From Pyronema omphalodes (Eukaryota; Ascomycota; Pezizomycetes; Pezizales; Pyronemataceae), in the NCBI GenBank assembly GCA_024516155.1, contig JAJJXM010000077.1, positions 124,001 to 188,000 on the forward strand: DNA of 64,000 nucleotides, written 5' to 3'. Below the pieces are notes generated by a model. That model did not search any database and was not told where the DNA came from. It worked only from the letters and a program-made list of their open reading frames with translations. The position numbers and the translations under genes are program-made. Position 1 is the first letter of the stretch. Each line of letters begins with the position of its first letter. Positions 8,970-43,362 of the stretch are shown one piece after another.

Positions 8970-10967
8970 TTTGTTTGTTTGTTTGTTTGTTTGTTTGTTT
9001 GTTCTCTCATTACTTGTTTGCAACCCGAAGGTTATGACAAGGGACAGATAAATACAAAAGAGAAGAAGAAAGAAATGTAAAAGCAAAAACCCAGTCTCCA
9101 CCTCTACCAGTCTCCTCCTCTTGATCGTTGTGGTTGTGGGGTCTGTCCCCACTGTTACTACGGGGGTTTCTTGTCCAAGCGCGTCTGATGTTCCAAGTGC
9201 CCTGCTTGCACAGAGGCCGCCTCGCCGGGCTCCTCCCTTTCCTCCTCCCTTCCCCTCCCATTTTTAACCATTTTTCCTCCTTTATTTCCTCCACAAAGCA
9301 AAAACGAAACCAAAGCAAAGTTAAACATCCGCCGGGCCACCCGTGCCCCCACTCTCCTCTCCTCTCTCACCTCCTCCGCCGGTGTCTCCTGACTCTTTGC
9401 CCTTTGGGACACCCGGGCCCGCCCTGCCCCTCTTCTCCTCCACTCTCTCCCCTTCTCCTTCCTTCTTCCTCATCCGTCTCGCTGCTCCCCCTCGCCTCTC
9501 TCCCCTTCTTGTCGGTGGTGTTGTCAGTCCAAGATTGCCATTCCCAAGCACAATCTGGACGTTGATGCCTCCGCTGTTGACGACTTCTGCCCAAGTCTTC
9601 TTTGCAGAGGAGGTTGTCGTTCTGGGTTGGTGGGTATTCTTTCCCCGGCCACCATTCTTTGTTGTAGGGGTCTTGCTGGGTGTCGCTGCCGTAGGTGTCG
9701 TCTCCTTCGCTTTCGGCTTCTTCCTCTGTTTAGCCTTTGCCTCCACAGTCTTCCATCCGTCGGTCTCAGCAGGGGCAGCGCTTGGGGCGTCGGGTAGAGG
9801 TGTGTCCTGAGCAGATGGACTGTCAGGGTGAGGTTCCGGTGTCGCTTCGGTCGACGTGATCGCGAGGAGAGGTAGGGGGGACATAGGCTTGAGGGCATCA
9901 AGCTTGTCCTGGGCGGCGGTAGACGCATGTTTTGAGTGCATCAGGCTTCGCACCGGTGATGCCGCTCTCGGTTTGTGGTTCACCGGTTTTCTGTTTGTCG
10001 GTGAGGTGGGTTCGGTGTTCTGGTCGCTTCCCCTTCGCTTTCTCTTGCCAGGAGGGTTGCGAACAGCGTCCAGGACATCCTGAATGTCATGTTGGACGAC
10101 GGACAGTTGCATAGTCATCTCTTCCATCGCTGAGGAAGAGGCCGTGAGGTTCGGTGAGGGGGGCGCCGAAATGACTTGTTGCTGTTCGTCGATTTTCCTC
10201 GTCAGGGCGTCCACAGCAGCCTTGAGAGCTGCTGTTTCTGCCTGTGTAGAGTCGTATGCTGCGCGCAGCTTCGTGTTTTCGCCGGTCAGAATGTTGAATT
10301 TCGTCATCATGACGTCGAATCTGAGGCGCATCTCATCGCTGTTGTTGCGTATGGTGTCATCGAGGGTATTGAAGCGTCGCTGTGTATCCCGGTGGATCTG
10401 TTGTATCCCCAGGAAGCTGGCTCCAGTGATCTCGGCGTAGTTGTCTATAAACAGTTGATCTAGGGTGGCATAGTTGTCGTCAACTGCGACTGCCTTATTA
10501 ATTGCAGATACCATTAAGCGACGGTAGTTACTAAACCGGCTGTGTTCAGTTGTCGCCTGTTGCTGCGATGTTGAAGCCGAAGGAACCGGTGATCGTGCCA
10601 AGACCACGCTCTGGAAGGGTTTTCCAGCGAAGTTTCCATCAACTTCATCAACTTTTCCATCTCTTCCATCAAATGTAGGAGTAGATCCATCATGAGGAAG
10701 GTCGGCTAGAACATTGTACGCGTTTTCGGACCGTTTCGATCGTTGGGCGTTGTTCTGTCGTTGTTTTGGCGACATTTCGTGAGGTGGGGTAAGCCAAAAC
10801 TCGTGAAAACTCTGATTTTGCGACAAAAGTCAACAAAAACAACGTAGAATTCCCTGAAAATTCAGAGAATAACGTAATAGAGTGCTGCGAATCCGAATCC
10901 GATGAGAAAATCGGGGGTTTCGGTGCTCGTTGTTGAGAATGCAGGGGGGGGGGTCGCCGTTGCCGTT
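8970..10967 (-). mobile_element. LINE-B1, full-length one-ORF LINE
   Basis: About 2.0 kb, with a LINE-type 5' box and C run (10940-10967), ~165 bp of 5' UTR, one 484-codon ORF, a LINE-A-type 3' UTR with hairpin at 9013-9041, and an AAAC tail at 8970-9002. It is inserted into LINE-B0 with a 14-bp duplication at 8956-8969 and 10974-10987 that carries one T/C difference. It has no EN, RT or RNase H, so it must be copied in trans if it moves. Structure and duplication are seen directly; trans-mobilisation is inferred. Confidence 0.88.
9321..10775 (-). CDS. LINE-B1 ORF: coiled-coil gag-like protein (484 aa)
   Basis: I chose the ATG at 10775 (MSPKQRQNN). The frame is open further upstream but only with non-ATG codons, and LINE-B3 uses the same ATG and has the same length. 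Features in order: basic N-terminus; a helical region with heptad-like Leu/Met spacing at about 128-200 (RRFNTLDDTIRNN, DALTRKIDEQQQ); a second helix at about 215-235; a basic cluster GKRKRR (possible nuclear signal); a Pro/Thr-rich linker; a conserved TWAEVV block near residue 410; and an Arg/Gly/Glu-rich tail. There is no zinc knuckle, EN, RT or RNase H. I do not recognise the family. By position and layout it resembles an ORF1 RNA-binding protein of a LINE, but this is inference. Confidence 0.75.
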   Translation of the reverse strand: MSPKQRQNNAQRSKRSENAYNVLADLPHDGSTPTFDGRDGKVDEVDGNFAGKPFQSVVLARSPVPSASTSQQQATTEHSRFSNYRRLMVSAINKAVAVDDNYATLDQLFIDNYAEITGASFLGIQQIHRDTQRRFNTLDDTIRNNSDEMRLRFDVMMTKFNILTGENTKLRAAYDSTQAETAALKAAVDALTRKIDEQQQVISAPPSPNLTASSSAMEEMTMQLSVVQHDIQDVLDAVRNPPGKRKRRGSDQNTEPTSPTNRKPVNHKPRAASPVRSLMHSKHASTAAQDKLDALKPMSPLPLLAITSTEATPEPHPDSPSAQDTPLPDAPSAAPAETDGWKTVEAKAKQRKKPKAKETTPTAATPSKTPTTKNGGRGKNTHQPRTTTSSAKKTWAEVVNSGGINVQIVLGNGNLGLTTPPTRRGERRGGAARRMRKKEGEGERVEEKRGRAGPGVPKGKESGDTGGGGERGEESGGTGGPADV

Positions 10968-10973
10968 TGCTTT

Positions 10974-11754
10974 GCTGAGACCGACGGATGGAAGACTGTG
11001 GAGGCAAAGGCTACACAGAGGAAGAAGCAGAAAGCGAAGGAGACGACACCTACGGCAGCGACACCCAGCAAGACCCCTACAACAAAGAATGGTGGCCGGG
11101 GAAAGAATACCCTCCAACCCAGAATGACAACCTCCTCTGCAAAGAAGACTTGGGCAGAAGTCGTCAAGAGCGGAGGCATCAATGTCCAGATTGTGCTTGG
11201 GAATGGCAATCTTGGACTGACAACACAACCGACAAGAAGGGGAGAGAGGCGAGGGGAGCAGTGAGAAGGCTGAGGAAGAAGGAAGGAGAAGGGGAGAGAG
11301 GGGAGGAGAAGAGGGGCAGGGCGGGCCCGGGTGTCTCAAAGGGCAAAGAGTCAGGAGACACCGGCGGAGGAGGGGAGAGAGGAGAGGAGAGCGGGGGCAC
11401 GGGTGGCCCGGCGGCTGTTTAACTTTGCTTTGGTTTTGTTTTTGCTTTGTGGAGGAAATAAAGGCGGAAAAATGGTTAAAAATGGGAGGGGAAGGGTGGC
11501 GGATAGAGGGGACACCCGGCGCGGTGGCCTCTGTGCGAACAGGGCACTGGAACAGCAGACGCGGTTGGACAACAAGACCAACGAAGTAATAGTGGGGACA
11601 GGACCACAAAATCACAGCCTAAGGGAGGATCAGCGGAGGTAGAGACGGGACTTTGTTTTGTTTTTGCTTTTGACTTTCCATGTACTTTAAACCTGTACTC
11701 TCGTCATAACCAATAACGTTGCATACGAGTAATGAATAAACAAACAAACAAACA
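10974..11754 (+). pseudogene. LINE-B0, right piece: ORF end, 3' UTR and tail
   Basis: Resumes LINE-B0 at AETDGWKTVEAK after the B1 insertion. It runs through the TWAEVV block and then terminates early (GEQ, stop near 11264), where B1 continues AARR; the purine-rich remainder is still recognisable to about 11420. The 3' UTR is of LINE-E type (GACAACAAGACC..CACAGCCTAAGG) with a hairpin at 11700-11729 (outer stem CTCGT/ACGAG) and an AAAC tail. It abuts LINE-D1. Confidence 0.82.
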
Positions 11755-12214
11755 AATGACCTTTCTGCGCTTCAGAGGTGCCAGCTCTTCGGGTGTTTTC
11801 ACTGCGATTACCACACTCGATGCGCTCTTACCTGCACGTTTCTCCGGACTGGTCATGTAGCGGGGAGGTTGCATCAGGGTCACAGGGCTGTTGTTGCGTT
11901 CGATTTCTTCCTGGAGGAGGCGCATGACCTCAGGGGTGTCTGGGTGTAGGTCTGTGGGGATGCCGTGAACTGCGAGCTTTCACCAACGCTCGTTCAGGCG
12001 GGGTTCGGATAGGGAGGTGTGGACTGTCTGCGTGGCTGTCTGTATCGTAACTAAGTTCTCTATCAGCTCTGCCTCAGTTGTGTTGTCCGACATGGTTAGC
12101 ATAAGGTTCCCGGTCGAGGTTTGTCTCATCGTAGTTACCCCCATGTGGGGTGGAGCCCGGGACTTAGCCAACGCGGTGTTGATGGCGATTCCTACGTTAA
12201 CCCTGGTATTCACG
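11755..12214 (-). pseudogene. LINE-D1 ORF1 fragment
   Basis: Minus-strand ORF1 middle region, near-identical by eye to LINE-D2 at 56350-56800. It reads TRVNVGIAINTALAKS..PHMGV, then SEPRLNERW, a TGA where other copies have Tyr, then KLAVHGIPT and MRLLQEEIERNNSPVTLMQ. The break on the left is the LINE-B0 tail and on the right the 5' end of LINE-A2. Neither missing half is recognised nearby, so its original insertion cannot be rebuilt. Confidence 0.82.
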
Positions 12215-12220
12215 GCACAC

Positions 12221-12654
12221 ACCACACAGCAACCGCTGACCCCCCCCTGCATTTGCGACACCAACAACAATTTCCCCGATTTTCGAATCGGCAATCGACT
12301 TCTTACCTCGGAATTACCCCGAATCTCGATTTTCGGAACCCAGCTACCGTTTACCGTTGAGATTCAGCGGAAAAACGCGATTCTGGGACCTCCGGGCCGG
12401 ATTCCGGGCACTTTCATCAACGCCGCTCCACCACCCGCCCCCCAATCATCAAACCGACCTTATTTTCGGTTTTGGCATACCGAAATCCCCCCCCCCCCCC
12501 CCAAATCCCCCCCCCACCAGCAGCACTGGTTGTGGTGATCCCCCAAATTTCCCCCCCTCCGGACCCCTTTCCTCGCGAGAAATTTTCGTGCTCGCTTAGC
12601 AAGAGCCTCCTCACGTGACTCTTCGCCATCGCTTACCTCACCACCGGTTAAGCG
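12221..12654 (+). promoter_or_regulatory. LINE-A2 5' UTR
   Basis: Shows the 5' box followed by seven to eight C and TGCATTTG, a CAACAACAA block, C runs at 12488-12513, CACGTG at 12612-12617 and the start-codon hairpin at 12626-12658. The hairpin arms are CCATCGCTTA and TAAGCGATGG, and ORF1 ATG 12655-12657 lies in the 3' arm. Promoter function is inferred from the needs of LINEs. Confidence 0.65.
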
Positions 12655-14341
12655 ATGGACGCTAACGCACCCATCCCCGCCACGCCCTCGCGTATGCAGG
12701 TACCCGAGAATATTTTTAGCCCCGACGAGCTTTCCCGAATCAACGCCCCGCACGCTGGCTCCTCCGCCATCGCGACCTCTAAGAAATCAACGACCGTCTC
12801 CGGAAAAGTCACCAAACGCCCCACCAAAAAATCCGACTCTAGACTTGGCCTCGACCTCCTCCGCAAAAATGCCACCCGACCGGAAACAAACACCCCCGTG
12901 AACCTCGATGGGACCCCCGCCGAAACAATGCCGACCGCTATGGACACTGACAGCTGCCCCGACACCGACTCCGAATCCGACTCTGACCTGAACCTCAACG
13001 ACAGCCAGCACGCAATAACTACTTCCGACGTCAACCTCGCGACCTTATCCGAACTGATCAAGACGACCATCATGGATCTCCTCCGCCCGATGAACCAACG
13101 CCTCGAAACAGTTACCAAACGCATCGACAAACTACACCGAACCAACACCCAGCCCCGAACCGACCACCTCGCCGACAACCCCCCGACCGCCCCCGACACC
13201 GCACCCGCCACCACGCCCACCGCCAACGACATACACCATTGGATGGCGAGATGCCACATGCTCGAAGGAATCTTGCGCAGCAACAACATCGCCATCCCCC
13301 TCGAAGCACCCCGGACTACAACCCGCCCCTCCAACGCACCCTCGGCGCCGTGGGCGGACCCCTCCAAGACCAGAACTCTCCTCAAAGCCAACCCCCCCCA
13401 CCAACCCCACACCCGCCACTAAACCGCACCCCCGACGCCAACGCACCCGCCCCCAGGAAATCGTTCTGCCCTGCCCACACCCTGCGGAAATCGACGTCAA
13501 TACCAAAGCCCAACTGGGAAGGGCGATCAACGCTGCACTCACCCAGACACAGGCGCCGCCTCACATGGCTGTCGCCACGATCAGACAAGCCACATCAGGA
13601 AACCTCATCGTGACCATGACAGACGGCACCACTGAATCCGAGCTGACCGAGAACCTAGGGACCATACACACGGCGACGCGACAGGTCAACACCTCCATCG
13701 CCGCACCCCGCCTGAACGAGCGGTGGTATAAGCTTGCAGTTCATGGAATCCCCACGAGCCAATACCCCGACTCCCCCGACGGAATGCGCTTCCTCCAGGA
13801 GGAGATCGAACGCAGCAACGGATCTGTCACCCTGGCGCAACCCCCCCGATATATGACGACCGCGGAGAAACGTGTGGGCAAGGAAGCGTCCAGTGTGGTT
13901 ATTGCGGTACGTACCGCCGAAGAGCTCGCACTCCTGAAGCGCAAACGAGTCATGGTACTCTTCGAGCCCCGAAGAGTCACCGAGTACCACTCTGCCCGAC
14001 GGACCGACCAGTGTCGGCGCTGCTTGCTCTTTTGCCACCACTACACCAACTGCACTGGACCGCAAGGCCCCACCTGCGGCATCTGCGGCCAGAACCACCC
14101 CACGGACGACCACGCCTGCAACGACTGCCCCCAAAGCAAAGGTAAGAGTTGTGAGCACACTAGATACCATTGCAAAAACTGCGCGGACGCCAACCTCCCC
14201 GACCTCGACCACCCAGGCTTCAGCAAGCAATGCCCCGTACGCATCCGCATATTCAAAGAAGCCTGGACAGCGTCACAAAACCCCGCCGCCGCCCCACCCA
14301 ACCCAGCCGACAGAGACACTGAGATGAACGCCCATGTCTAG
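12655..14341 (+). pseudogene. LINE-A2 ORF1, one frameshift, mosaic
   Basis: ATG at 12655 inside the hairpin. The frame holds to about 13390. There a run of eight C (13392-13399; seven in E2) shifts it to HQPHTRH and a stop at 13420-13422. The homologous frame resumes at once (frame of 13565) and runs to the TAG at 14339-14341, through the three Cys/His clusters (CRRCLLFCHHYTNC; one Gly is Cys here). Up to ~13418 the sequence matches LINE-E ORF1, and from ~13420 (AAACCGCACCCCCGACGCC) it matches LINE-A1, so the copy is a chimera. The zinc-knuckle half is open. Confidence 0.87.
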
Positions 14342-17300
14342 CTACAACAGACTGGCAGCAACCATACGGATCGTCTCCCACAACGTGAACCGACAACGAA
14401 CAGCACTCGATGCGCTGCTGAATAGCGCACACAACACAGCCGACATAATCGTCATACAAGAAATTCACATTACCGACATAACATACGCCGCCACACACCC
14501 ATCGTTCACACTGGTCTTGCCACCGCGTGGGGACAGAACCACCAACAGAACTGCCGCCTATGTGACCAGGACAAACCCATACCTCAGGGTTTCTCAGCGC
14601 ACCGATATATGCGCGGATCCTGACCTCCAGGTCCTTGAGGTAGGCACCGACTTAATTCCTTCTTTCTTTCTTCTTAATATGTACAACGAAAAACACCCCG
14701 AAAGCAATATTTATACGATCCCGAGAGCCCTCACCCCCCCTCCCCCTCCCCCGCAGGTGCATCATCACAGGTGACCTCAACGCTCACCATGCCCTGTGGA
14801 ACTCCTCCACACGTTCCCCCACCCGCGCCACCGAAATAGTTGACCTCATCGAACAACGAGACTGGACCCTCGTGTCCGTCCCTGACATTCCCACCTACTA
14901 CTACAACCAAGGCCGCAGTTCTTCCGTCCTCGACCTGACCCTAGCATCGCCCGACATGGCAGAGGAAACAATCAACTGGGCAATTGACGACGACAACGCT
15001 ACGGGATCTGACCATGAAGTCATACGTTTCGAAGTGCACACAACCCACCCAGACGCTGAAACAACCCCCCCAACAAACCGACTGAACTGGAAAAAGACGG
15101 ATTGGGAGCTCTTCGCCGAAACCCTCCGTGCCTCGTGCTTAGCCCTCACACCATCATGGACACAATACCGCAACCACCCTACCACAGACAACCTCGATGC
15201 GTGGGCGGAGTCAATACGTGATGCCATCCTTAATGCCGCGACTACGTCCACCCCCGTACTACAAGTGACCCCACAATCGAAGAGATGGTGGACCGCAGAA
15301 GTCACCGAGGCAAGGAAAAAGATGACCAAAGCAAGACGTAAGTGGAAACGCAAACGTGACGATAGATCCCACCTAAACTACAAACAACACCGAAACGAAT
15401 ACCACAGGACCATTCGAATGGCGAAAGATGCAAAGTGGAAGGAATATCTTTCCAAAGCCGAAGGACCCGATGTGTGGCAGGCGTTTAGGTACACCAACCC
15501 TCGGCGCGCTCAGCTAACACCAAACCTCCGCGCAATGATAAACGGCCAAGAAACAATCTGCAGCTCCTTCGACGCAAAGGTAGAGGCCTTCCAAAAGTTG
15601 TTTCCCCCGCCGCCGCCACCACCGCCTCCGTCCGTCCTCCCCCCGCGCCGCGAGTTGCAGTGGACAACCTTTACACCGACAGACGTAGAAACAGCGATAT
15701 TCTCCTCCTCGCCGACGAAGGCGCCCGGACCCGATGGGCTCACATTCGCCTGCCTGCGCCAAGCATACCTTGCCATCCCCAAACACATGAACAACCTCTA
15801 CGCCACATTAGGGACGGTAGGCTACCATCCGCGATGCTGGCGCCAGGCCACCACAGTCATTATCGCCAAACCTAACAAGCCGGATTACAGCAATCCAAAG
15901 GCATACCGTCCGATTGCGCTCCTAAACTGCCTTGGGAAGACCCTCGAAAAACTAATGGCCACCCGCCTAGGCACGATGGCAGACTCTCACGACTTACTAC
16001 ATAGGGACCAAATAGGTGGACGCCCGCAGAGATCAGCAATTGACGCGGCGATGGCGCTGGTGCACGACGTCGAGATTGGGAAATCTCACGGAATGCTAAC
16101 CTCTGCCCTCTTCCTCGATGTTCGTGGAGCGTTCGACAACGTCTCTGCCGACCGCCTCCAACAAACATTACGACAGCTTGGGTGCCCGCGACCAGTAGTA
16201 TCGTGGTGCCAGTCTTTCCTCGCAGATCGCACGATCGCTCTAGCGTTCGACGGGCGAACTGACACGCAACGCCCAGTGCAAACAGGCATCCCACAAGGTT
16301 CCCCTGCATCCCCCATACTTTTCTTATTATACCTCCGCCCATTATTCGACGAACTAGCGCAGGTACACCCGTACGCCTGGACACCTAGCTACATTGACGA
16401 CGTAGCGATCGTCGTCCAGGGACGCACCAGAAAAGCGAACGCCCGCGCACTTGAGAACATTACGACAACAGCCTTTCGGTGGGCCGACGCAAACGCCGTT
16501 GCATTTGACGATGCCAAGTCAGAGCTCCTGCATTTCCACTGGGCACGCACCGACAGCATCACTGAGGAGGAAAAAGTTAAGTTACCAAACGGTACAGTTA
16601 TCACACCGGGAACACAAGGAGGAGAGAAGGATGTTGTGAGGTGTATAGGCCTGTATTTAGATAGGAAACTTAACTTTAGAAAACATGTAGCTAGACGAGT
16701 AACCGCCGCGCAAAGAACTCTGAACGCACTGTGTAGGTTAGCACGGTACGAGACAGGTCTGTCCCCCGCTGCTACAAGACTAATCTACCAGGCGTGTGTC
16801 CAGTCGAGAGCAGACTACGGCGCAGAGATATGGTGGAACCAACAAAAAGACCTTGCCCGCACCCTCCAGAATCAACAGAACACCGCCCTCCGCAGGATTC
16901 TCAACGCTTTCACCTCTACTCCGATCCTGGCCCTCCACAATGAATCCGCACTCCCCCCCGTCACAATACGTCTTGACAACCGCCAGCGGAAATACGCCCT
17001 GCGCACCCTCACTTTACCCGCTTCGCACCCTATCATCACACGCTGCCCCGTCTCGTTTCCCGCCCCGAGTATCGAGGATGCCTCCATCAACCCGGACACC
17101 GAGTACGACCACCCGTGGCACGTCCCAGGACAAGCCCCGTCCCGCCTCCTGCACGTCATCAGCACCCTCTCCCCGTGGGTCCAACCAAACGCCGAAATCG
17201 AGGACACCTCCCAAAACATCCCCGACGACGACCTCGCCCCTACATTAACGATCGACATCTCCTCCTCCCCGAAGGCTGAAGCTGCCGACGACCACCTCCT

Positions 17301-18255
17301 CCTCCTCCACGCCCTTCGCCAACGATCGGACACTATCCTGCTGTACACGGACGGCTCCCAACTTGACGGCATAACAGGCGCAGGATACACCATCCCCCAC
17401 GGGCTGCCACGTCCTGTCGACTCCATAGTGCCCATGGGCGACAGAACAGAAGTCTTCGACGCGGAAGTTATGGCCATCCACGAAGGACTCCGGACATGCC
17501 TGACACATATTCGACGCAACGACCTATACGACAAACACATCCACGTTTTTACCGACAACCAAGCCGCGATACGTCGAGCCTCTCACCTCCGTCGAGGCCC
17601 CGGCCAGAAGCTCGCCTGGGCCATCCACAACACCGCTCACGACCTTCACGATTACGGTACCTCAATTACCATCCACTGGGTTCCAGGACACACTAGCGTC
17701 CCCGGAAACGAAGCCGCCGACGAACTGGCCCGACAGGCGACAACAGTACCGCCACGCCGACAAATACCGATATCCCTCACTTGGCTGCGCCGCCGCACTC
17801 GAGAGAGGTACACCGAAGACTGGGCTACCTGGTTCACCTCTTCCCCCCGACCGCGCACGTACGCCGCCACACACCGCCGCAAAATGGACACTGCGTACAC
17901 CGAAAACCCCCGCTGGATATCATCTGCAATCCTGGGTCTTCGCACCGGCCACGGGTACTTCCACAACTGCTTGGCCCACCCTCCATCCGACGCATACCCC
18001 TCCCGCAGCTGCAGCTGCCCAATCCATCCACCGCAGACGCCTCGACACCTCCTCCTGAGCTGCCCGGACTTCCAGGCCGCTCGCTCCACACTCAGGAAGG
18101 ACCTCAAACTCAGACAACACTCCCGGATCAACCTAAACACCATTCTGGACACCCCCTCCGGCACCAAGGCTCTTTCCACCTTTCTCTCTGCAACCAAGGT
18201 TGCTACCTCGACCTGGGCACACTCCCGGCTAGAGAAGCCTCGCAGAAGGGGATAG
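14334..18255 (+). pseudogene. LINE-A2 ORF2: EN-RT-RNase H, one frameshift
   Basis: ATG at 14334 overlaps the ORF1 stop by 8 nt. EN runs SHNVNRQRTALD..QEIHITD and is in frame to about 14740, where a C run (7, 5 and 5 C against 6, 5 and 5 in A3) shifts it. The frame that contains 14872-18255 then carries 1127 further codons without a break: GSDHEV, the Pro-rich linker, RT motif A FLDVRGAFDNV, B' GIPQGSPASP, motif C YIDDVAIV (near codon 506 of this segment), RNase H LYTDGS (~823), FTDNQAA (~892) and NEAADE (~944), and a C-terminal CSCPIHPPQTPRHLLLSC cluster. Every catalytic motif is present. A one-base correction or a sequencing error in the C run would make it complete. Confidence 0.92.
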
Positions 18256-18343
18256 ACCGCTACCGCTGACTACACTGACCGCAGTACCTTAGGAACTTTC
18301 GCGCGCGCTGATTTTGCAGTGCTTTCTTACTCAGGATTTCTGT

Positions 18344-18379
<36 letters not shown>

Positions 18380-19089
18380 ACAAGCAAAAGGGGAAGGTAG
18401 AAGAGGGATAGGCGGAGAGAAAGGGAACGGGCACGCGGTGACGGGATCGGGCTGGGGTCGTTGCTTGGGTCTGCTTGGGGTTCGGGTGTTTTAAGTTTTC
18501 TTTTCTTTGTCTTTCAATTGTTTGTCTTACGGGTTGGAGTTGTTTTATGGTACGGCGGGTGAGAAGGGAACGGATGGTGGAATGGTGCACAGGAAGGGAG
18601 ATGACGGGGACGGCAGGCGAGAGAGGGCAGACGAGTTTCCTTTGTACTTTCCTTTGTTTGGGTGCGACGATGTTTTTCTTATGTTCGGAGGGCGGGAGGA
18701 GTGCGAGGCGTTGCGAAAGGAGGGAGAGGGGCACGGGGAAGGGGCAGAGGAGGACGACGGGAGTTACCTTTTTCTTTTGTACGCGGAGGAAACAAAGGCG
18801 GTAAAATGGCTAAACATGGGAAGGGGAAGGGAGGAGGAAAGGGAGGAGCCCGGCGAGGCGGCCTCTGTGCAAGCAGGGCACTTGGAACATCAGACGCGCT
18901 TGGACAAGAAACCCCCGTAGTAACAGTGGGGACAGACCCCACAACCACAACGATCAAGAGGAGGAGACTGGTAGAGGTGGAGACTGGGTTTTTGCTTTTA
19001 CATTTCTTTCTTCTTCTCTTTTGTATTTATCTGTCCCTTGTCATAACCTTCGGGTTGCAAACAAGTAATGAGAGAACAAACAAACAAAC
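18256..19089 (+). other. LINE-A2 3' UTR with internal oligo(A), hairpin and tail
   Basis: Starts with a ~90-nt conserved leader, then 28 A at 18349-18376, then ~630 bp of G/A-rich sequence. The A-type 3' module follows with a hairpin at 19037-19065: outer stem CTTGT/ACAAG, inner AACC-TTCG-GGTT. GAGAA and CAAA units end the element. The oligo(A) in the middle suggests that the distal module was joined downstream of an older poly(A) end. Confidence 0.8.
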
Positions 19090-20445: not shown

Positions 20446-20640
20446 TTCGTGAGGTGGGGTAAGCCAAAACTCGTGAAAACTCTGATTTTGCGACAAAAGT
20501 CAACAAAAACAACGTAGAATTCCCTGAAAATTCAGAGAATAACGTAATAGAGTGCTGCGAATCCGAATCCGATGAGAAAACCGGGGGTTTCGGTGCTCGT
20601 TGTTGAGAATGCAGGGGGGGGGTCGCCGTTGCCGTGTGGT
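19090..20640 (-). mobile_element. LINE-B2, 3' end missing
   Basis: Shares 5' box, 5' UTR and ORF start with B1 and B3. The left (3') end is replaced by the LINE-A2 tail inside the purine-rich ORF end. The 5' end abuts LINE-E1 RT sequence with about ten extra bases (20641-20652) in between. Its 3' tail type cannot be known. Confidence 0.85.
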
Positions 20641-20652
20641 GTTCGCTGATAT

Positions 20653-34084: not shown

Positions 34085-34516
34085 ATGCCTACCCGATCCT
34101 CCGCTGTTGAGAAACAGCCCCTCCCCCCCGACAAAGCACCCCCTTGAGCGCTCGCGAAAGAAAAACGCGCTAACGTGGAGCCGCAAGGGTCCGACGCGTC
34201 TGACACGGAAATGCACGTCGACACGTGCTCTGACGTCAGCGATGACTCTAGCGACGAAGACGCGTCTTCCCGCGAGAGCTCCCCCACCCCCGTCGCGCGC
34301 AACACCAGCAACGCTCCACCCAAAACCCCCCACAATAAGAAAACCCTCCCTGATAACAACGACACCCCCGACGTATTGACCAACCCCGACCCCAAATACA
34401 CCGTTCAACGCAACACCGACAAATCGAAAAAAACGCCCCGCTGCCTCCACCGCCCATACTATCACCCACATTGCCGCCGACTCCACCCCACTCCCCGCGA
34501 CTCTTCTCCATCAAAC
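34085..34516 (+). pseudogene. LINE-C2 ORF1, N-terminal fragment
   Basis: ATG 34085 (MPTRSSAVEKQPLPPD), an in-frame TGA at 34145-34147, then open in the same frame: VEPQGSDASDTEMHVDTC, a Ser/Asp-rich stretch (SDVSDDSSDEDASS) and a Lys/Pro-rich linker, up to the LINE-E2 5' end. The acidic Ser-rich N-terminus parallels the other ORF1 proteins although the sequence differs. The zinc-knuckle part is elsewhere (41256-41370, inverted) or deleted. Confidence 0.72.
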
Positions 34517-34950
34517 ACCACACAGCAACCGCTGACCCCCCCCTGCATTTGTGACAACAACAACAATTTCCCCGATTTTCGAATCGGTAATCAATTTCTT
34601 ACCTCGGAATTACGCCGAATCTCGATTTTCGGACCCCAGCTACCGTTTACCGTTGAGATTCAGCGGAAAAAACGCGATTCTGGGACCTCCGGGCCGGATT
34701 CCGGGCACTTTCATCAACGCCGCTCCACCACCCGCCCTCCAATCATCAAACCGACCATATTTTCGGTTTCGGCATACCGAAATCCCCCCCCCCCCCCCAA
34801 ATCCCCCCCCCACCAGCAGCACTGGTTGTGGTGATACCCCAAATTTCCCCCCTTTCGGACCCCTTTCCTCGCGAGAAATTTTCGTGCTCGCTTAGCAAGA
34901 GCCTCCTCACGTGACTCCTCGCCATCGCTTACCGTACCACCGGTTAAGCG
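34517..34950 (+). promoter_or_regulatory. LINE-E2 5' UTR
   Basis: 5' box, CAACAACAA block, C runs around 34786-34808, CACGTG 34909-34914, and start-codon hairpin 34922-34954 (CCATCGCTTACCG / CGGTTAAGCGATGG with one bulged T). Confidence 0.65.
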
Positions 34951-36642
34951 ATGGACGCTAACGCACCCATCCCTGCCATGCCCTCGCGTATGCAGGTACC
35001 CGAGAATATTTTTAGCCCCGACGAGCTTTCCCGAATCAACGCCCCGCACGCTGGCTCCTCCGCCATCGCGACCTCTAAGAAATCAACGACCGTCACCGGA
35101 AAAATCATCAAACGCTCCACCAAAAAATCCGACTCTAGAATTGACCTCGACCTCCTCCGCAAAAATGCCACCCAACCAAAAACAAACACCCCCGTGAACC
35201 TTGATGGGACCCCCGTCGAAACAATGCCGACCGCTACGGACACCGACAACTACCCCAACACCGACTCCGACTCCGACTCTGACCTGGACCTCAACGACAG
35301 CCAACACGGAGTAACTACATCCGACGTCACCCCCGCGACCTTATCCGAATTGATCAAGACGAACATCATGGATCTCCTCCGCCCAATGAATCAACGCCTC
35401 GAAACTGTGACCAAACGCATCGACAAACTACACCGAACCAACACCCAGCCGCGAACCAACCACCTCGCCGACAACCCCCCGACCGCCCCCGACACCGCAC
35501 CCGCCACCAAGCCCATCACCAACGACATACACCATTGGATAGCGAGATGCCACAGACTCGAAGAAGTCTTACGCAGCAACAACATCGCCATCCCCCTCGA
35601 CGCACCCCGGACTGCAACCCGCCCCTCCAACACACCCTCGACGCCGTGGGCGGACCCCTCCAAGACCAAAACTCTCCTCAAAGCCAACCCCCCCACCAAC
35701 CCCACACCCGCCACTACTCGCCCCGTCGTCAAACGACAGCCCCGAACCCGCCCCCAGGAAATCGTTCTGCGCTGCCCCAACCCCCGTGTCCTGCCGGTCC
35801 ACACGAGAGTAGAAGTGGGCTTCGCAGTGAACAAAGCACTGCTGGAGGCCAAAGCCCCCTCTCATATGGGAGTCACTACGGTCCGCAAAAACCAAGCGGG
35901 AAATATCATCTTGACACTGAACCCTGCTACCACTGCCGAAGAGCTAACCGCACACTTAGAAACAATTCAACGCGCTGCCCAAACGGTACACCCCTCTCTC
36001 GACAGCCCTCGCATCAACGAAAGATGGTATAAACTCGCCGTCCACGGCATCCCCACGGACATCTACCCCGACACTGAGGAAGGAATGCGCCTCCTCCGGG
36101 AAGAAATCGAACGGAGCAACAACCCGGTCACCCTGGCCCAGACTCCGCGGTACATGACGACGGCAGAAAAGCGCGCTGTCAAGACGGCCTCCAGTGTAGT
36201 AATTGCAGTGCGCACGCCCGACGAGTTGGCCCTCCTCAAACGCCATAAGGTGCTGGTCCTCTTCGAAGCGCGAAGCGTGACCGAATACTTCACCGCGAGG
36301 AAAACCGATCAATGTCGACGGTGCCAACTCTACGGCCACCACCACGCAACCTGCACTGGACCCCCCGGACCGATCTGCGCCCTCTGTGGAAAAGAACACC
36401 CCACGGAGAACCACAACTGCACCGAATGCCCGACGAGAAACGGTAAGTCGTGCTCACACACTAAGTACGAATGCAGAAACTGCGTCGAGGCTGGCATCCC
36501 CGAACATGACCATCCCGCCTTTCACAAACAATGCCCGACTCGCCTCCGCATCCACAAGGAAGCCAGAGAGGCAACCCAACCCGCCGCCTCTACCTCACCC
36601 AACCCTACAGACAAAGACACCGACATGATCCAACATGTCTAA
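34951..36642 (+). CDS. LINE-E2 ORF1: zinc-knuckle protein (563 aa)
   Basis: Intact, with ATG in the hairpin and a stop overlapping the ORF2 ATG (ATGTCTAA, 36635-36642). Acidic DSDSDLDLNDS region at ~108-118, helix LLRPMNQRLETVTKRIDKL, conserved block RWYKLAVHGIPTDIYPDTEE, and three Cys/His clusters starting CRRCQLYGHHHATC and CALCGKEHPTENHNC, then CRNCVEAGIPEHDHPAFHKQC. Same length as E1, with scattered substitutions. The role is RNA binding and particle formation, by analogy to Tad/I-type ORF1. Confidence 0.91.
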   Translation: MDANAPIPAMPSRMQVPENIFSPDELSRINAPHAGSSAIATSKKSTTVTGKIIKRSTKKSDSRIDLDLLRKNATQPKTNTPVNLDGTPVETMPTATDTDNYPNTDSDSDSDLDLNDSQHGVTTSDVTPATLSELIKTNIMDLLRPMNQRLETVTKRIDKLHRTNTQPRTNHLADNPPTAPDTAPATKPITNDIHHWIARCHRLEEVLRSNNIAIPLDAPRTATRPSNTPSTPWADPSKTKTLLKANPPTNPTPATTRPVVKRQPRTRPQEIVLRCPNPRVLPVHTRVEVGFAVNKALLEAKAPSHMGVTTVRKNQAGNIILTLNPATTAEELTAHLETIQRAAQTVHPSLDSPRINERWYKLAVHGIPTDIYPDTEEGMRLLREEIERSNNPVTLAQTPRYMTTAEKRAVKTASSVVIAVRTPDELALLKRHKVLVLFEARSVTEYFTARKTDQCRRCQLYGHHHATCTGPPGPICALCGKEHPTENHNCTECPTRNGKSCSHTKYECRNCVEAGIPEHDHPAFHKQCPTRLRIHKEAREATQPAASTSPNPTDKDTDMIQHV

Positions 36643-39600
36643 TTACAACCAATTGGCAACGACAATCCGAATAGTTTCCCATAATATGAATCGCCAACGC
36701 CCAGCCCTCGACTCCGTCCTAAACAGCGCCTGCACAACAGCAGACATCATCCTGCTACAGGAAATCGACATCACCGACCCCGCCTTCGCCACCACCCACC
36801 CCGCCTTCACGTTGGTCCTGCCCCCCCGCGGTGACAGAGCCTCCAACAGGACAGCGGCGTATATCAATCGCACAAACCCTTACCTGAAAGTATCACAACG
36901 CACAGACATATGTACAGACCCGGACCTCCAGGTCCTCGAGGTAGGTACAGATCTCATCCCCGCGTTTTTCCTTTTAAATATTTATAATGAACGTGACCCC
37001 GAAACCCAAACCTACACAATTCCCCGCTCCCTATCACCCCTTTCCTTCCCACGCAGATGCGTTATAACAGGTGACCTCAACGCTCACCACGCTCTATGGA
37101 ACTCCGCAACACGCACACCCAAACGTGCCAGTGAACTGGTACACCTTATAGAACAGGAAAATTGGAGATTGGTTTCAGTCCCAGACACCCCGACACACTA
37201 CTACCAACAGCGGACTAGATCCTCCGTTATCGACTTGACCCTGGCCTCGCCAGCCATGATGGAAGAGGTAGGAAACTGGGCCATAGACGATGTATTAGCC
37301 ACCGGGTCGGACCACGAAGTAATTCGCTTCGACATCCAAACTGTGCACCCAGACATAGAACCTGCCCCCCCACCGGAACGTCTCAACTGGCGGAAAACAG
37401 ACTGGGCCTTGTTCTCCACGACCCTCCAAGCATCCATCTCCGCATCGACAACACAGTGGAGTCAATACGCCTCCAACCCCACACCCGAAAACCTCGACGT
37501 CTGGGCGCGCCACGCGAGAGAACATATCCTCGATGCAGCTCGCGCCTCCACCCCCGTACTACAAGTCACCCCCCGATCGAAACCTTGGTGGACGGTGGAA
37601 GTCACCACCGCCAGAAAGGATATGACCCGCGCAAAAAGAAGGTGGAAATCAACGGGCTCAGACACTAACCGCACCATTTACCGCCGCCTACGAAACAAGT
37701 ATCACCGTCAGACAAGATATGCCAAGGATGCGATGTGGAAAGAGTATCTGGCTCAGGCAGAAGGACCGGACGTCTGGCGGGCCTTCAAATACACAAACCC
37801 GCGCCGTGCCCAACTCACCCCGAATATCCGCGCCACAATCAACGGTAGGCAGGAACTCTGCAGTTCGTTCGACAGGAAAGTAGAGGCATTTCAGATGTTA
37901 TTCCCCCCACCACCTCCCCCGCCCCCCCCCATCCACCCTCCCCTGTCGCAGAGAGACAACGTGGACGACCTTCTGGCCGTCGGAGGTCAAACAAGCCATC
38001 TTTACCTCTTCCCCCTCGAAAGCCCCAGGACCCGACGGGATAACCTTTGGTTGTCTCCGCCAAGGGTGTCTCGCCGTCCCCACATACCTAACCTATCTAT
38101 ACTCGACGCTGGGCACTGTAGGGTACCATCCCTGCGGGTGGAGACAGGGCACGACGGTAATTAAACCGAAACCTAACAAACCCGACTACGCAAATCCAAA
38201 GGCGTACCGCCCAATCGCCCTGCTGAACTGCCTTGGAAAAACGTTAGAGAAATGAATGGCGACTCGGCTCGGACAACTCGCGGAGACCCGGGAACTGTTA
38301 CACCGAGACCAAGTAGGAGGCCGCCCGCAGCGATCCGCCATCGACGCCGCAACAGCGCTCGTCCACGACATTGAAATGGGTAAACAACAGAAACTTATCA
38401 CCACAGCACTTTTCCTAGACGTACGCGGAGCTTTCGACAATGTCTCCGCCGATCGCCTTCAGCAGACACTACACCAGCTAGGCTGCCCCCGACAAATCCG
38501 AACATGGTGCGAAACCTTCCTCGCCGAAAGGATGACCGCTCTATCCTTCGACGGACAAACAGATCGCCAACGCCCAATTAAAACGGGAATCCCCCAGGGT
38601 TCCCCAGCATCACCGATCCTGTTCCTCCTGTACTTAAGACCGCTCTTCGACGCACTAATGCAGGAACACCCGTTCGCGTGGACCCCCAGTTACATGGATG
38701 ACGTCGCAATCGTTGTACAGATTCGAACCCGGAAAGAAAACGCGCGCCTCCTGGAAAAAGTCACCAAAACAGCATTCACTTGGGCAGCTTCCAACGCTGT
38801 GGCCTTCGACGACTCAAAGACGGAACTCCTTCTTTTCCACTGGGCGAGGTCAGATACAATCACAGACAATGAGAAAGTAAAACTACCGAACGGTACGATA
38901 GTGAGCCCTGGGACGCAGGGAGGAGAAAAAGATGTCGTACGATGGATTGGTATGTACCTAGACAGACGCCTTACCTTTAAAGCACATGTACGTAGAAAAA
39001 CAGCCGCCGCACAAAGAACGCTCACCGCGCTATGCCGATTAGCAAGATATGAAACTGGTCTGTCTGCCCTCGCGACCCGACTAATTTTCCAGGCATGCGT
39101 CCAAACCCGTGCGGACTTTGGCGCGGAGATATGGTGGACGCGACAGAGAGACCTTGCCTCGAAACTACAAACCCAACAAAATTCAGCCCTACGCCGCATA
39201 CTCAACGCGTTTAACTCGACTCCCACACTGGCGCTCCATAACGAGACCGCACTACCTCCGGTACCGATACGCCTGGACCACAAGCAACGCCAATACGCAC
39301 TCCGCGTCCTCACTCTCCCTCCGACACATCCGATCGCACGCCGGTGTCCCACATCCTTCCCCATACCGAGCCTACAATCCGCCGCTATTGAGATCGCAAA
39401 CGATTACGACCACCCGTGGCACAACACCACACGACAGCCCACGCGCCTCCTCAGCGCTCTACACTCTCTCTCGCCTTGGCTCCCTCTCAACGCAGCGGTC
39501 GGAGACACCTCCCTCCCCGTTCCGCTCGACGCCGACGAAAACCTCTTAACCGTCGACATCCCCACAGCCCCGAAACCCGAGACAGCGCACGCCCACCTCC

Positions 39601-40577
39601 TACTCCTCGACAACCTCAGACGACGCCGCAATGTCATCATCGCCTACACGGACGGGTCGCAGACCGCGTCTGGCACCGGCGCCGGATACACCATCACCAT
39701 TGGACTACCCACCACCATTAACGCCATCGTACCTATGGGAGACACAGCTGAAGTGTTCGATGCAGAGGTGCGCGCAATTCAAGAATGCCTCTTAACGTGC
39801 TTGAAATACATCGCTCGCCTCAACCTCCACAACCGTCGACTGCACATCTTTAGCGACAACAAAGCTGCGCTCCAACGTGCCTCACACCTCCGACGCGGCC
39901 CCGGCCAGGAAATAGCCCACACTATACATGAGACAGCCGAAGCCCTACTACAACACGACGTCACAGTCACCCTCCACTGGATCCCCGGTCACTCCGACAT
40001 ACCCGGCAGCGATGCCGCAGACCGCCTGGCTAAACAAGCCACCGAATCCCTCCCCCGTGCGAATCTACCCATTACACTCACCCGGCTACGCAAGAAAGCA
40101 CGCGAGAAGACCGTCGCCGAGTGGACACACTGGTACTCCTCCTCCGATCGACCACACACATACTCTGCCCCGCACCGGAGACGCATGGATCCCATCTACG
40201 TCGACAACCCCCGGTGGCTCTCTACCGCGATCCTTGGTCTCCGTACAGGACACGGATACTTTCTGGACTACCTGGCACACCCGCCGACAGACTCCTACCC
40301 ATCGCGACATTGTAGCTGCCCGCTACACCCCCCTCAGACCCCTCGGCACCTGCTCCTCAGCTGCCCTGACCACCGGGACGCCCGGACAACACTTCGACAG
40401 GATCTCAAACTCCACAGGAATTCCCAGATCAATTTGGACAACATCCTCTACACCCCCTCCGGCACAAAGGCTCTCTCTTCGTTTATCTCCGCGACAAAGG
40501 TCGCTACTTCGGTATGGGCTCATGCCAGGTTAAGTAGGACTCGCAGGCGAGACCACCCCCGTTTCATTGACAGCTAA
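36635..40577 (+). pseudogene. LINE-E2 ORF2: EN-RT-RNase H, two lesions
   Basis: ATG 36635. EN is complete (SHNMNRQR, QEIDITDP, CVITGDLNAHHALW, GSDHEVIRFD). A frame change in the proline/C-run region (~37915-37930) leads to PPIHPPLSQRDN and a later stop. RT resumes downstream; a TGA at 38252-38254 sits where A copies read EKLMATRL. From 38256 the frame is open for 773 codons: FLDVRGAFDNV, GIPQGSPASP, YMDDVAIV (Ile to Met in the catalytic motif), RNase H AYTDGS, FSDNKAA and SDAADR, and a CSCPLHPPQTPRHLLLSC cluster. Its C-terminus is slightly longer than in the A copies. Confidence 0.89.
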
Positions 40578-41206
40578 TAAGCAGTACCGCTTGACTTCTC
40601 CGTGCGTTATAGATTCGTCCTTCTCTTTTGACATCATGTATTCCTTCTTATTTTCTTTGCTTTTCTGTTTCCTTTGTTATCGCGGGCGGAGTTGGATGGG
40701 AGAAGACAGTGGAAGGAGAAGGGACCGGGGTAGGAAGGGGGGACGGGATTGCGCGACGAGAGTTTTTCCTTTGATTATTTCCTTTCTTTTGTTTTGTTTT
40801 TAAGGGCGGAAGGGGTATACGGGATTGCACGAGGAGAGAGAGGCGCGATGGGAAGGGGCAGAGTGGGCCGGCGGAGGTTATCTTTTTCTTTTTGCTCGTG
40901 GAGGAAATAAAGGCGGGGAAAACGGCTAAAACATGGGAGGGGAAGGGTGGAGGAAAGAGAGGACACCCGGCGCGGCGGCCTCTGTGCGAACAGGGCACTG
41001 GAACAGCAGACGCGGTTGGACAACAGGACCAACTAAGTAATAGCGGGGACAGGACCACAAAATCACAGCCTAAGGGAGGATCAGCGGAGGTAGAGACGGG
41101 ACTTTGTTTTGTTTTTGCTTTTGACTTTCCATGTACTATAAACCTGTACCCTCGTCATAACCAATAAGGTTGCATACGAGTAATGAATAAACAAACAAAC
41201 AAACAA
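40578..41206 (+). other. LINE-E2 3' UTR, hairpin and tail
   Basis: Lacks the internal oligo(A) of LINE-A. It contains a T-rich start, purine-rich blocks, the GGAGGAAATAAAGGCGG module, and an E-specific end (AGGACCACAAAATCACAGCC). The hairpin at 41151-41180 has outer stem CTCGT/ACGAG and inner AACC/GGTT with loop AATAA. AAAC units follow. Confidence 0.8.
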
Positions 41207-41255
41207 ACTCCCACCCAGATGCATCATCACTGGGGACCTAAACGCACACCACCCC
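41207..41255 (+). pseudogene. LINE-C2 endonuclease scrap
   Basis: Reads RCIITGDLNAHH, a catalytic segment of the LINE EN domain, directly after the LINE-E2 tail and ending abruptly at 41255. It belongs to LINE-C2 by position; the similarity to the homologous site in A, D and E is clear. Confidence 0.75.
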
Positions 41256-41370: not shown

Positions 41371-43362
41371 GTTTGTTCGTTGTTTGTTTGTTTGTTTATT
41401 CATTACTCGTATGCAACCTTATTGGTTATGACGAGGGTACAGGTTTATAGTACATGGAAAGTCAAAAGCAAAAACAAAACAAAGTCCCGTCTCTACCTTC
41501 GCTGATCCTCCCTTAGGCTGTGATTTTGTGGTCCTGTCCCCACTATTACTTCGGTGGTCCTGTTGTCCAACCGCGTCTGCTGTTCCAGTGCCCTGCTTGC
41601 ACAGAGGCCGCCTTGCCGGGCTCCTCCCTTTCCTCCTCCCTTCCCCTCCCATTTTTAACCATTTTTCCTGCTTTATTTCCTCCACAAAGCAAAAACGAAA
41701 CCAAAGCAAAGTTAAACAGCCGCCGGGCCACCCGTGCCCCCACTCTCCTCTCCTCTCTCACCTCCTCCGCCGGTGTCTCCTGACTCTTTGCCCTTTGAGA
41801 CACCCAGGCCCGCCCTGCCCCTCTTCTCCTCCCCTCTCTCCCCTTCTCCTTCCTTCTTCCTCAGCCTTCTCACTGCTCCCCCTCGCCTCTCTCCCCTTCT
41901 TGTCGGTGGTGTTGTCAGTCCAAGATTGCCATTCCCAAGCACAATCTGGACGTTGATGCCTCCGCTCTTGACGACTTCTGCCCAAGTCTTCTTTGCAGAG
42001 GAGGTTGTCGTTCTGGGTTGGTGGGTATTCTTTTCCCGGCCACCATTCTTTGTTGTAGGGGTCTTGCTGGGTGTCACTGCCGTAGGTGTCGTCTCCTTCG
42101 CTTTCTGCTTCTTCCTCTGTGTAGCCTTTGCCTCCACAGTCTTCCATCCGTCGGTCTCAGCAGGGGCAGTGCTTGGGGCGTCGGGTAGAGGTGTGTCCCG
42201 AGCAGATGGACTGTCAGGGTGAGTTTCCGGTGTCGCTTCGGTCGACGTGATCGCGGGGAGAGGTAGGGGGGACATAGGCTTGAGGGCATCAAGCTTGTCC
42301 TGGGCGGCGGTAGTCGCATGTTTCGAGTGCATCAGGCTTCGCAGCGGTGATGCCGTTCTCGGTTTGTGGTTCACCGGTCTTCTGTTTGTCGGTGAGGTGG
42401 GTTCGGTGTTCTGGTCGCTTCCCCTTCGCTTTCTCTTGCCAGGAGGGTTGCGAACAGCGTCTAGGACATCCTGAATGTCATGTTGGACGACGGACAGTTG
42501 CATAGTCATCTCTTCCATCGCTGAGGAAGAGGCCGTAAGGTTCGGTGAGGGGGGTGCCGAAATGACTTGTTGCTGTTTGTCGATTTTCTTCGTCAGGGCG
42601 TCCACAGCAGCCTTGAGAGCTGCTGTTTCTGCCTGTGTAGAGTCGTATGCTGCGCGCAGCTTCGTGTTCTCGCCGGTCAGCATGTCGAATGTCGTCATCA
42701 TGACGTCGAATCTGTGGCGCATCTCATCGCTGTTGTTGCGTATGGTGTCATCGAGGGTGTTGAAGCGTCGCTGTGTGTCCTGGTGGAACTGTTGTATCCC
42801 CAGGAAGCTGGCTCCAGTGAATTCGGCGTAGTTGTCTATAAACAGTTGATCTAGGGTGGCATAGTTGTCGTCAACTGCGACTGCCTCATTAATTGCAGAT
42901 ACCATTATGCGACGGTAGTTACTAAGCCGGCTGTGTTCAGTTGTCGCCTGTTGCTGCGATGTTGAAGCCGAAGGGACTGGTGATCGTGCCAAGACCACGC
43001 TCTGGAAGGGCTTTCCAGGGAAGTTTCCATCAACTTCATCAACTTTTCCATCTCTTCCATCCAGAGTAGGAGTAGATCCATCATGAGGAAGGTCGGCTAG
43101 AACATTGTACGCGTTTTCGGACCGTTTCGATCGTCGGGAGTTGTTCTGTCGTTGTTTTGGCGACATTTCGTGAGGTGGGGTAAGTCAAAACTCGTGAAAA
43201 CTCTGATTTTGCGACAAAAGTCAACAAAAACAACGTAGAATTCCCTGAAAATTCAGAGAATAACGTAATAGAGTGCTGCGAATCCGAATCCGATGAGAAA
43301 ATCGGGGGTTTCGGTGCTCGTTGTTGAGAATGCAGGGGGGGGGGTCGCCGTTGCCGTGTGGT
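41371..43362 (-). mobile_element. LINE-B3, full-length one-ORF LINE with E-type tail
   Basis: About 2.0 kb with the same 5' UTR and 484-codon ORF as B1. Its 3' UTR changes to LINE-E sequence after the CTCTGTGCAAGCAGGGCAC block, and the hairpin at 41406-41435 has the E-type outer stem (CTCGT/ACGAG on the element strand). It is inserted in LINE-C2 between the inverted zinc-knuckle scrap and RT. No duplication was found. Confidence 0.88.
41712..43166 (-). CDS. LINE-B3 ORF: coiled-coil gag-like protein (484 aa)
   Basis: Intact, starting at ATG 43166 (MSPKQRQNNSRRS) and the same length as B1. A TGA just upstream in frame (GGTAAGTCAAAA on the plus strand) confirms this start. It has the coiled-coil region at ~128-200, the second helix MEEMTMQLSVVQHDIQDVL, GKRKRR, a Pro/Thr linker, TWAEVVKSGG, and the Arg/Glu/Gly-rich end GGTGGPAAV. 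Differences from B1 are scattered substitutions with no frame change. No enzyme motif is seen. Likely an RNA-binding, self-associating protein; the function is not established. Confidence 0.78.
   Translation of the reverse strand: MSPKQRQNNSRRSKRSENAYNVLADLPHDGSTPTLDGRDGKVDEVDGNFPGKPFQSVVLARSPVPSASTSQQQATTEHSRLSNYRRIMVSAINEAVAVDDNYATLDQLFIDNYAEFTGASFLGIQQFHQDTQRRFNTLDDTIRNNSDEMRHRFDVMMTTFDMLTGENTKLRAAYDSTQAETAALKAAVDALTKKIDKQQQVISAPPSPNLTASSSAMEEMTMQLSVVQHDIQDVLDAVRNPPGKRKRRGSDQNTEPTSPTNRRPVNHKPRTASPLRSLMHSKHATTAAQDKLDALKPMSPLPLPAITSTEATPETHPDSPSARDTPLPDAPSTAPAETDGWKTVEAKATQRKKQKAKETTPTAVTPSKTPTTKNGGREKNTHQPRTTTSSAKKTWAEVVKSGGINVQIVLGNGNLGLTTPPTRRGERRGGAVRRLRKKEGEGERGEEKRGRAGLGVSKGKESGDTGGGGERGEESGGTGGPAAV

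Follow-up and report, generated by a model that had tools for sequence, protein, structure and literature searches.

A family of elements in the fungus Pyronema omphalodes raises the question of how a retroelement that encodes no enzyme can reach hundreds of copies, and what its one protein is for. The elements, here called B, were noticed in a 64,000-nt stretch of contig JAJJXM010000077.1 (assembly GCA_024516155.1, positions 124,001 to 188,000; hereafter, the window) by an initial annotation made from the sequence alone. It described two copies, B1 and B3, as encoding a 484-codon protein with the same start and end, and a third, B2, as open until it is cut. Both descriptions held: B1 and B3 show 94.3% identity across 1998 nt and their open reading frames (ORFs) start and end alike (Table 1), and the B2 ORF is open from its ATG at 20445 until the 3′ end of a long interspersed nuclear element (LINE), LINE-A1, joins at ~19089. 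We consider it probable that B is a LINE parasite that encodes only a Gag-like protein, uses this protein mainly on its own RNA, takes its reverse transcriptase (RT) from LINEs, and has followed them by exchanging its recognition tail.

Structure and Copy Number of B Elements

We compared B1, B3 and one copy of a second subfamily (type II) with LINE-A. The likeness was confined to the two ends, namely 42–76 nt at the 5′ end with 74–83% identity, and the 3′ end, which in B1 includes a hairpin and an (AAAC)n tail. No remnant of LINE ORF1, endonuclease, or RT/RNase H was detected in these three copies (best E 0.21), in line with the initial annotation, which had seen no trace of the enzyme domains; the B elements tested thus lack the RT that marks an autonomous LINE. 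In 33 complete B elements, 1937–1963 nt separate the 5′ marker from where the 3′ tail motif ends. B1 is flanked by a 15-nt target duplication with one mismatch, and flank repeats of at least 9 nt were found in 17 of the 33 complete elements, compared with 2.5% for mispaired flanks. Note that one of the 17, at locus L026, is a self-match to a neighboring B element, leaving 16 of 33. In addition, a LINE-A ORF2 frame of 1308 codons was free of stops in 24 of 42 listed copies. Target duplications, shared tails (see below) and intact LINE-A ORF2s all fit the earlier proposal that B moves by target-primed reverse transcription with another element's enzyme. Separately, ~40 nt resembling antisense B lie between the 5′ end of a type II B element and its likely target duplication (L032:1265–1311), by eye a trace of template jumping.

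We next counted B ends in the whole P. omphalodes assembly (60.8 Mb), to which all genome-wide counts refer. The B 5′ end had 378 matches (≤1 mismatch), the junction of the B stop codon and 3′ untranslated region (3′ UTR) had 393 (≤2 mismatches), and the LINE-A 5′ end had 173 (≤1 mismatch), while each reversed pattern had 0. B 5′ ends are therefore about twice as common as those of LINE-A. The near-equal numbers of B 5′ and 3′ ends argue against general 5′ truncation, with the reservation that the patterns compared differ in length and in mismatches allowed.

Protein searches with three subfamilies listed 159 distinct near-full-length B ORFs: 12 belong to type II, 14 to type III (at least 86% identity to P0001), and the remaining 133 are counted with type I, 88 for their identity of at least 90% to B1 and 45 by default, as neither II nor III. 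In this ranked list, which favors intact copies, 137 of the 159 were stop-free. Another sample was drawn from DNA ends only, independently of the ORF: a colinear stop junction was listed for 42 of the first 100 listed B 5′ ends, and of these copies 22 were open, 7 had stops, and 13 lay outside the scored ORFs, one of them (C46:46344) being open in L023. A fourth, low-copy subfamily, similar to P0016, was also found.

B Elements Carry the 3′ Tails of Three LINEs

Alignment of the B elements showed a common stretch of 3′ UTR followed by one of three tails, alpha, beta or gamma. B1 has the alpha and B3 the beta tail, each matching a different LINE, a difference that had gone unnoticed in the initial annotation. 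Over the last 162–178 aligned positions, the alpha tail of B1 was identical to that of LINE-A1 at 174 of 174 positions, and the beta tail of B3 to that of LINE-A2 at 169 of 173. The gamma tail matched a LINE at locus L045, recognized by ORF2-like C-terminal matches 745 nt before its tail, at 161 of 162 positions in type II and at 162 of 162 in both type III and type I. Each B tail is thus 98–100% identical to the tail of a different LINE, as expected of elements that share a 3′ end with their partner, whereas identity was 38–63% between tail classes and 38–62% among the LINE tails themselves. Just upstream of the tail, B1 and B3 agreed at 105 of 107 positions (98%) and each agreed with its own LINE at 81%; for gamma B elements and the L045 LINE, the identity there was 89–92%.

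In the window and loci L009–L040, 62 alpha- or beta-like tails were found (gamma was not sought in that search). Thirty-five of them follow a type I ORF, 31 being alpha and 4 beta, with a few counted twice because some loci overlap. The tail lies 313–317 nt after the stop codon in 31 of the 35 and at 122–572 nt in the other 4; we read these 4, and the single tail assigned to type II, as nested copies and did not use them. Among 40 gamma tails listed, 15 follow a scored ORF (7 of type II, 2 of type III and 6 counted as type I), and the other 25 are unassigned. Of the six, L020 is confirmed as type I by its sequence, and another gamma tail on a type I body stands in L026. In L026 (3816–7760), two B elements stand head to tail, the first with an alpha and the second with a gamma tail, and the second begins right after the (AAAC)n tail of the first.

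The differences between tails could come only from DNA recombination or gene conversion between B copies, without any exchange with LINEs. L020 speaks for such events, since by eye its type I ORF carries the type II version of the ORF end together with the tail, and the way its tail changed points to recombination with a B element of type II or III, not with a LINE. However, recombination among B copies is unable to create three B tails that are nearly identical to those of different LINEs, the LINE tails being so unlike one another, and we regard it as a quite unlikely sole source. A related observation is that types I and II differ at 0.10–0.19 of synonymous sites in codons 400–480, compared with 0.38–0.84 in codons 1–400; the end of the ORF may be exchanged together with the tail.

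Tail History and the 3′ Hairpin

We then mapped the tails, 20 of them alpha, 3 beta and 11 gamma, onto a tree built from 34 full-length bodies. Tail class needed at least 5 changes, compared with a mean of 12.3 when labels were shuffled. Beta arose three times and gamma needed two changes, and the well-supported branches alone forced 3 and 2, suggesting that tails are inherited and yet exchanged repeatedly. The same clustering rules out that a tail is chosen anew at every transposition.

The three tails, as well as a fourth LINE tail at 44849, have a 3′ hairpin in common. In these four sequences, the inner stem UAACC/GGUUG is invariant, the outer stem has changed on both sides at 2 of 5 pairs, and 97.5% of cells are paired in register, compared with 27–38% when slid; the covariation score was reached in 39 of 500 shuffles. 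For alpha the fold energy was in the ordinary range (z −1.05 and −1.18); for beta it was somewhat unusual (z −2.35). The loops differ, being UUCG, AAUAA, UUAC and UUAA. For two zebrafish LINEs, the ORF2 protein was reported to read the stem generally and the loop specifically (PMC4176376). If B hairpins are read likewise, then exchange of the tail would change the LINE that copies B. As for the way in which tails could be joined to a body, strand switching by the L1 RT is one proposed origin of mosaic L1 families (PMC3600994), and chimeric L1 insertions with other RNAs have been catalogued (PMC13174262). A possible short hairpin was also seen at the 5′ end (CCGATT/AATCGG in LINE-A1, 12270–12295, and at other LINE-A and B 5′ ends). 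Its z was −0.76 in LINE-A1, and the B fragment that was folded held only part of the stem, so that we do not claim a 5′ hairpin (CCGAT...ATCGG) common to B and LINE-A.

The B Protein and Its Relation to LINE ORF1

AlphaFold, run with a 50-sequence alignment, gave a mean predicted local distance difference test score of 54 and a predicted template modeling score of 0.32. It placed one long helix at residues 118–201 (block means 87–95 over residues 131–200 and 62–75 before them) and weaker helices at 71–113 and 214–239, with most of the remaining chain disordered. Residues 241–420 have a net charge of +14. The long helix is probably a coiled coil; the heptad periodicity peaked at 3.52, a value reached by 6.1% of shuffles, and we do not claim a trimer such as the initial annotation had envisaged. 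The protein is Gag-like by its build only, that is, helix and predicted disorder, as neither the B1 nor the B3 protein had a Pfam family at the curated cut-off. At E ≤ 0.01, Pfam gave nothing for B1 itself and 17 scattered weak families among 50 homologues, the commonest being Mis12 (6 of 50, best E 0.00038).

The protein database returned 160 matches at E ≤ 1; among the 120 listed, all those named were from P. omphalodes, and the remainder were JGI entries without an organism name. No confirmed sequence relative was found in IMG/VR and none by sequence in PDB, and Rfam, searched over 8900–11300 for a head derived from a small RNA, gave no match. We also compared the protein with LINE-A ORF1. 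BLASTP showed no similarity (B1 against LINE-A2 ORF1; homologue P0009 against LINE-A1 ORF1), and the hhalign probability was 0.2% with a LINE-A profile of only 4 sequences, a thin side of the comparison because the LINE-A ORF1 protein search had a single match. By these comparisons, the B protein appears unrelated to the ORF1 of LINE-A1 and LINE-A2.

This bears on whether B is an internal deletion of a two-ORF LINE with this ORF1, as half-L1 (HAL1) is of L1, with its parent extinct, rare or unassembled. Both B ends are LINE-A-like, HAL1 and TRE5-A.2 are ORF1-only derivatives, and in its overall design, a helix plus a basic region, the B protein resembles a LINE ORF1. On the other hand, no ORF2 remnant was seen in the three elements tested, the tail stands at a near-constant distance from the stop codon once the four copies read as nested are set apart, and a Pfam domain was found in 0 of 120 listed homologues, in a search that returns no proteins above ~850 aa. 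The profile comparison, small as its LINE-A side was, likewise gave no similarity to the LINE-A ORF1s, and the searches, within their limits, turned up no two-ORF element that carries this ORF1. We regard such a deletion as possible, though somewhat short of evenly balanced. About as plausible, and likewise tentative, is the view that B never had the ORF1 of its hosts and would instead be an unrelated ribonucleoprotein protein selected for its own RNA, with a replaceable coiled-coil segment and exchangeable LINE tails, moving from host LINE to host LINE. If so, B would be the retroelement counterpart of a satellite virus that codes for its own coat and borrows a polymerase.

Purifying Selection on the B ORF

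To assess whether the protein matters, as the initial annotation had proposed, we compared the nonsynonymous-to-synonymous ratio (N/S) of variants seen once with that of variants shared by at least 2 copies. The copies were picked by similarity to B1 or P0008, or were neighbors of such copies. In 25 intact type I ORFs, N/S was 0.76 for singletons and 0.37 for shared variants (Fisher p = 0.005; synonymous/nonsynonymous counts 52/124 and 51/59), and in codons 185–491 it was 0.90 and 0.25 (p = 0.0015). The values for 11 type II ORFs were 0.50 and 0.32 (no separate test), and the two types pooled gave p = 0.006. Note that assembly errors would add singletons and that the N/S analysis had no LINE-A control. 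The pattern is that of near-neutral decay after insertion together with purifying selection between generations, as judged from these variants.

Substitution rates agree with this. The ratio of nonsynonymous to synonymous rates (dN/dS) was 0.42 in pairs within type II. Between types I and II it was 0.45 overall, 0.14, 0.19 and 0.20 in codons 200–240, 240–280 and 280–320, 0.10 in codons 400–440, and 0.28–0.55 in most other windows; 0.51–0.69 of synonymous sites differ in codons 200–320. The low windows and the alignment of 50 homologues indicate that much of the C-terminal half is conserved and that the preceding helix region has been replaced or scrambled between subfamilies.

Could the ORF be open merely because the copies are young, the protein being idle and a few master copies having spread the family? 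The copies are indeed young, with a mean pairwise distance of 4.1% within type I, and a random substitution yields a stop only 2.5% of the time. However, shared variants are poorer in amino acid changes than private ones, dN/dS is low between types I and II in codons 200–320, and full-length homologues with ~50% identity retain the motifs and differ little in length (for instance, 481–486 aa in P0009, P0012 and P0042), many other matches being partial. We therefore consider idle youth very unlikely, and the B protein appears to be kept by selection. The pattern that would have spoken otherwise, dN/dS near one with many broken copies, was not seen, although type I as a whole reaches 0.57; many copies are open.

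If broken copies freely used the protein of intact ones, the contrast between shared and private variants would be expected to be weak, and action mainly in cis, on the encoding RNA, is thus the simplest reading. An alternative is that the protein helps LINE-A as a shared helper, or represses competitors, and that B persists as one component of a multipartite element. The excess of B over LINE-A 5′ ends would suit this, as would the fast evolution of the coiled-coil region, which conflict would predict. However, LINE-A encodes an ORF1 of its own, in which Cys and His residues are conserved and whose motifs look RRM-like and zinc-knuckle-like, and a helper in trans would not be expected to place the ORF of each separate lineage under selection. 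We judge this alternative unlikely.

A Model for the Spread of B

We propose that B is a non-autonomous non-LTR element encoding a single Gag-like protein, in which a long helix that probably forms a coiled coil precedes an extended, disordered and basic region. Its RNA would carry LINE-like ends, and a LINE ORF2 protein would bind the 3′ hairpin and copy the RNA into a nicked target by target-primed reverse transcription. The B protein would act mainly on the RNA that encodes it, probably as a coat that also delivers it to the LINE machinery. Exchange of the 3′ tail would let B lineages keep pace with different LINEs, and the simplest route to such an exchange would be a template switch during reverse transcription between LINE RNA and B RNA inside the common 3′ UTR stretch.

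Several points, besides L020, weigh against this model. The gamma LINE is a single copy, L045, and the comparison with ORF1 covered LINE-A1 and LINE-A2 only. The test used gave no flank repeat of at least 9 nt in 16 of the 33 complete elements, leaving half without a clear target duplication. In the quick tree, 13 of 31 inner branches are weakly supported, and beta, with only three rows, is unclustered, since random labels would need ~2.9 changes; the small total of changes relative to shuffling also means that tails are mostly inherited and exchange is occasional. The ORFs analyzed came mainly from the ranked list favoring intact copies close to B1, pairwise dN/dS within type I as a whole is 0.57, and dN/dS between types I and II is ~1 in codons 40–80 and 120–160. 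Finally, recombination between B copies is able to create shared variants and some tail changes.

Other Features of the Window and Genomic Location

The features of the window that concern B and its presumed partners are listed in Table 1. B1 was inserted into an older B copy of opposite orientation. In addition, a Ty3-type long terminal repeat (LTR) retrotransposon lies at 47569–52343, its pol having RT, RNase H, integrase and chromodomain and its gag a weak zinc-knuckle match. A gag-like ORF with a Retrotrans_gag match below the cut-off, adjoined by an ORF without a confident family, is at 25146–26813. An A+T-rich 198-nt unit is repeated in tandem at 60194–61155 (4.9 copies, 97% matches), and nested tandem arrays with periods of 56, 86, 121 and 135 are at 62577–63990, where three minus-strand frames are open to the window end.

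Table 1. Positions of B elements, their parts and LINE-A copies in the window.
Feature	Position	Strand	Remark
B1, complete B element	8970–10966	−	~2.0 kb; type I ORF and alpha tail
B1 ORF	9321–10775	−	484 codons
B1 3′ UTR	8970–9320	−	B-common stretch after stop codon, then alpha tail with (AAAC)n
Alpha-tail 3′ hairpin	9013–9041	−	Outer stem CUUGU/ACAAG, inner stem UAACC/GGUUG, loop UUCG
B1 target duplication, 5′ copy	10973–10987	+	9 nt exact
B1 target duplication, 3′ copy	8955–8969	+	9 nt exact
B3, complete B element	41371–43363	−	Type I ORF and beta tail
B3 ORF	41712–43166	−	484 codons
B2, B element	19090–20641	−	3′ end cut off by LINE-A1 3′ end
Older B copy hosting B1, left part	8687–8969	+	
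Older B copy hosting B1, right part	10973–11756	+	Beta tail
5′-truncated B copy	8213–8687	+	Alpha tail
LINE-A1 copy	12219–19089	+	Presumed alpha-tail partner; ORF2 part 14956–18255 with RT and RNase H
LINE-A2 copy	34515–41207	+	Presumed beta-tail partner
Further LINE-A copy	27051–33946	−	Alpha tail

We also examined where B copies lie. For 60 B copies on contigs of at least 290 kb and of known length, the median distance to the contig end was 47 kb, compared with ~166 kb if uniform. LINE-A copies share the B islands near contig ends on most of C155, C211, C162, C187, C151 and C193, and assemblies break in repeats; for these reasons, we do not read the nearness to ends as telomeric. The islands may reflect subtelomere, centromere or an assembly effect. 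With regard to a telomere link like that of HeT-A, four TTAGGG units had 357 matches genome-wide (the ~100 listed are on C19, C42, C51, C106 and C117), compared with 373 for the reversed control.

Comparison with Known Systems

In the parts of the literature covered on Pyronema transposable elements, fungal Tad/ORF1, and ORF1-only or gag-only elements, no published description of B was found. The initial annotation had ranked B as a candidate for an undescribed system, but its kind, an ORF1-only element using another's enzyme, is already known from TRE5-A.2, HAL1 and HeT-A.

TRE5-A.2 of Dictyostelium is, like B, non-autonomous and without all of ORF2; its activity was reported to be similar to that of the full element, and it is apparently mobilized in trans by the TRE5-A.1 ORF2 protein (PMC5391098). 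It carries its partner's ORF1, whereas the B protein appears to have no relation to either of the two LINE ORF1 types with which it was compared, and the tails of B are those of three LINEs. Mammalian HAL1 is likewise non-autonomous, encodes ORF1p only, and arose several times (PMC5753468); its ORF1 is that of L1, whereas no such parent was found for B. HeT-A of Drosophila resembles B in having one structural-protein ORF, an enzyme from another element (presumed in the case of B), and the highest abundance of its set, but it is telomeric and related to the two-ORF TAHRE (PMC4700185), whereas the target duplications of B lie at internal sites and the searches gave it no two-ORF relative. B thus has the single intact ORF1-like frame without ORF2 that HAL1 and TRE5-A.2 have, without the homology to partner ORF1 as far as LINE-A1 and LINE-A2 are concerned.

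Short interspersed nuclear elements (SINEs) are non-coding. B differs from them in encoding a protein that appears to be under selection. Those SINEs with stringent LINE tails are, like B, short, with a LINE 3′ tail and a stem-loop (PMC4176376, PMC3747384, PMC5135761), and the reading of stem and loop by zebrafish LINEs parallels the B tails, in which the stem is common and the loop different (PMC4176376). The variable coiled-coil segment of B also parallels the changing coiled coil of L1 ORF1p (PMC7449397, PMC3600994).

Autonomous LINEs carry both ORF1/Gag and RT, so that the protein's own role is hard to separate. B separates an ORF1-type protein from RT in nature, in hundreds of copies whose bodies are nearly alike and bear three natural tails, and thereby makes testable the cis action of ORF1-type proteins and the tracking of a host LINE by a parasite when tail specificity changes. 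B differs from the known systems, as far as its sequences tell, in that its protein shows no relation to the ORF1 of those partners with which it was compared, that it draws on three presumed partners, that tails have been exchanged repeatedly on a single body, and that it exceeds its presumed hosts in number.

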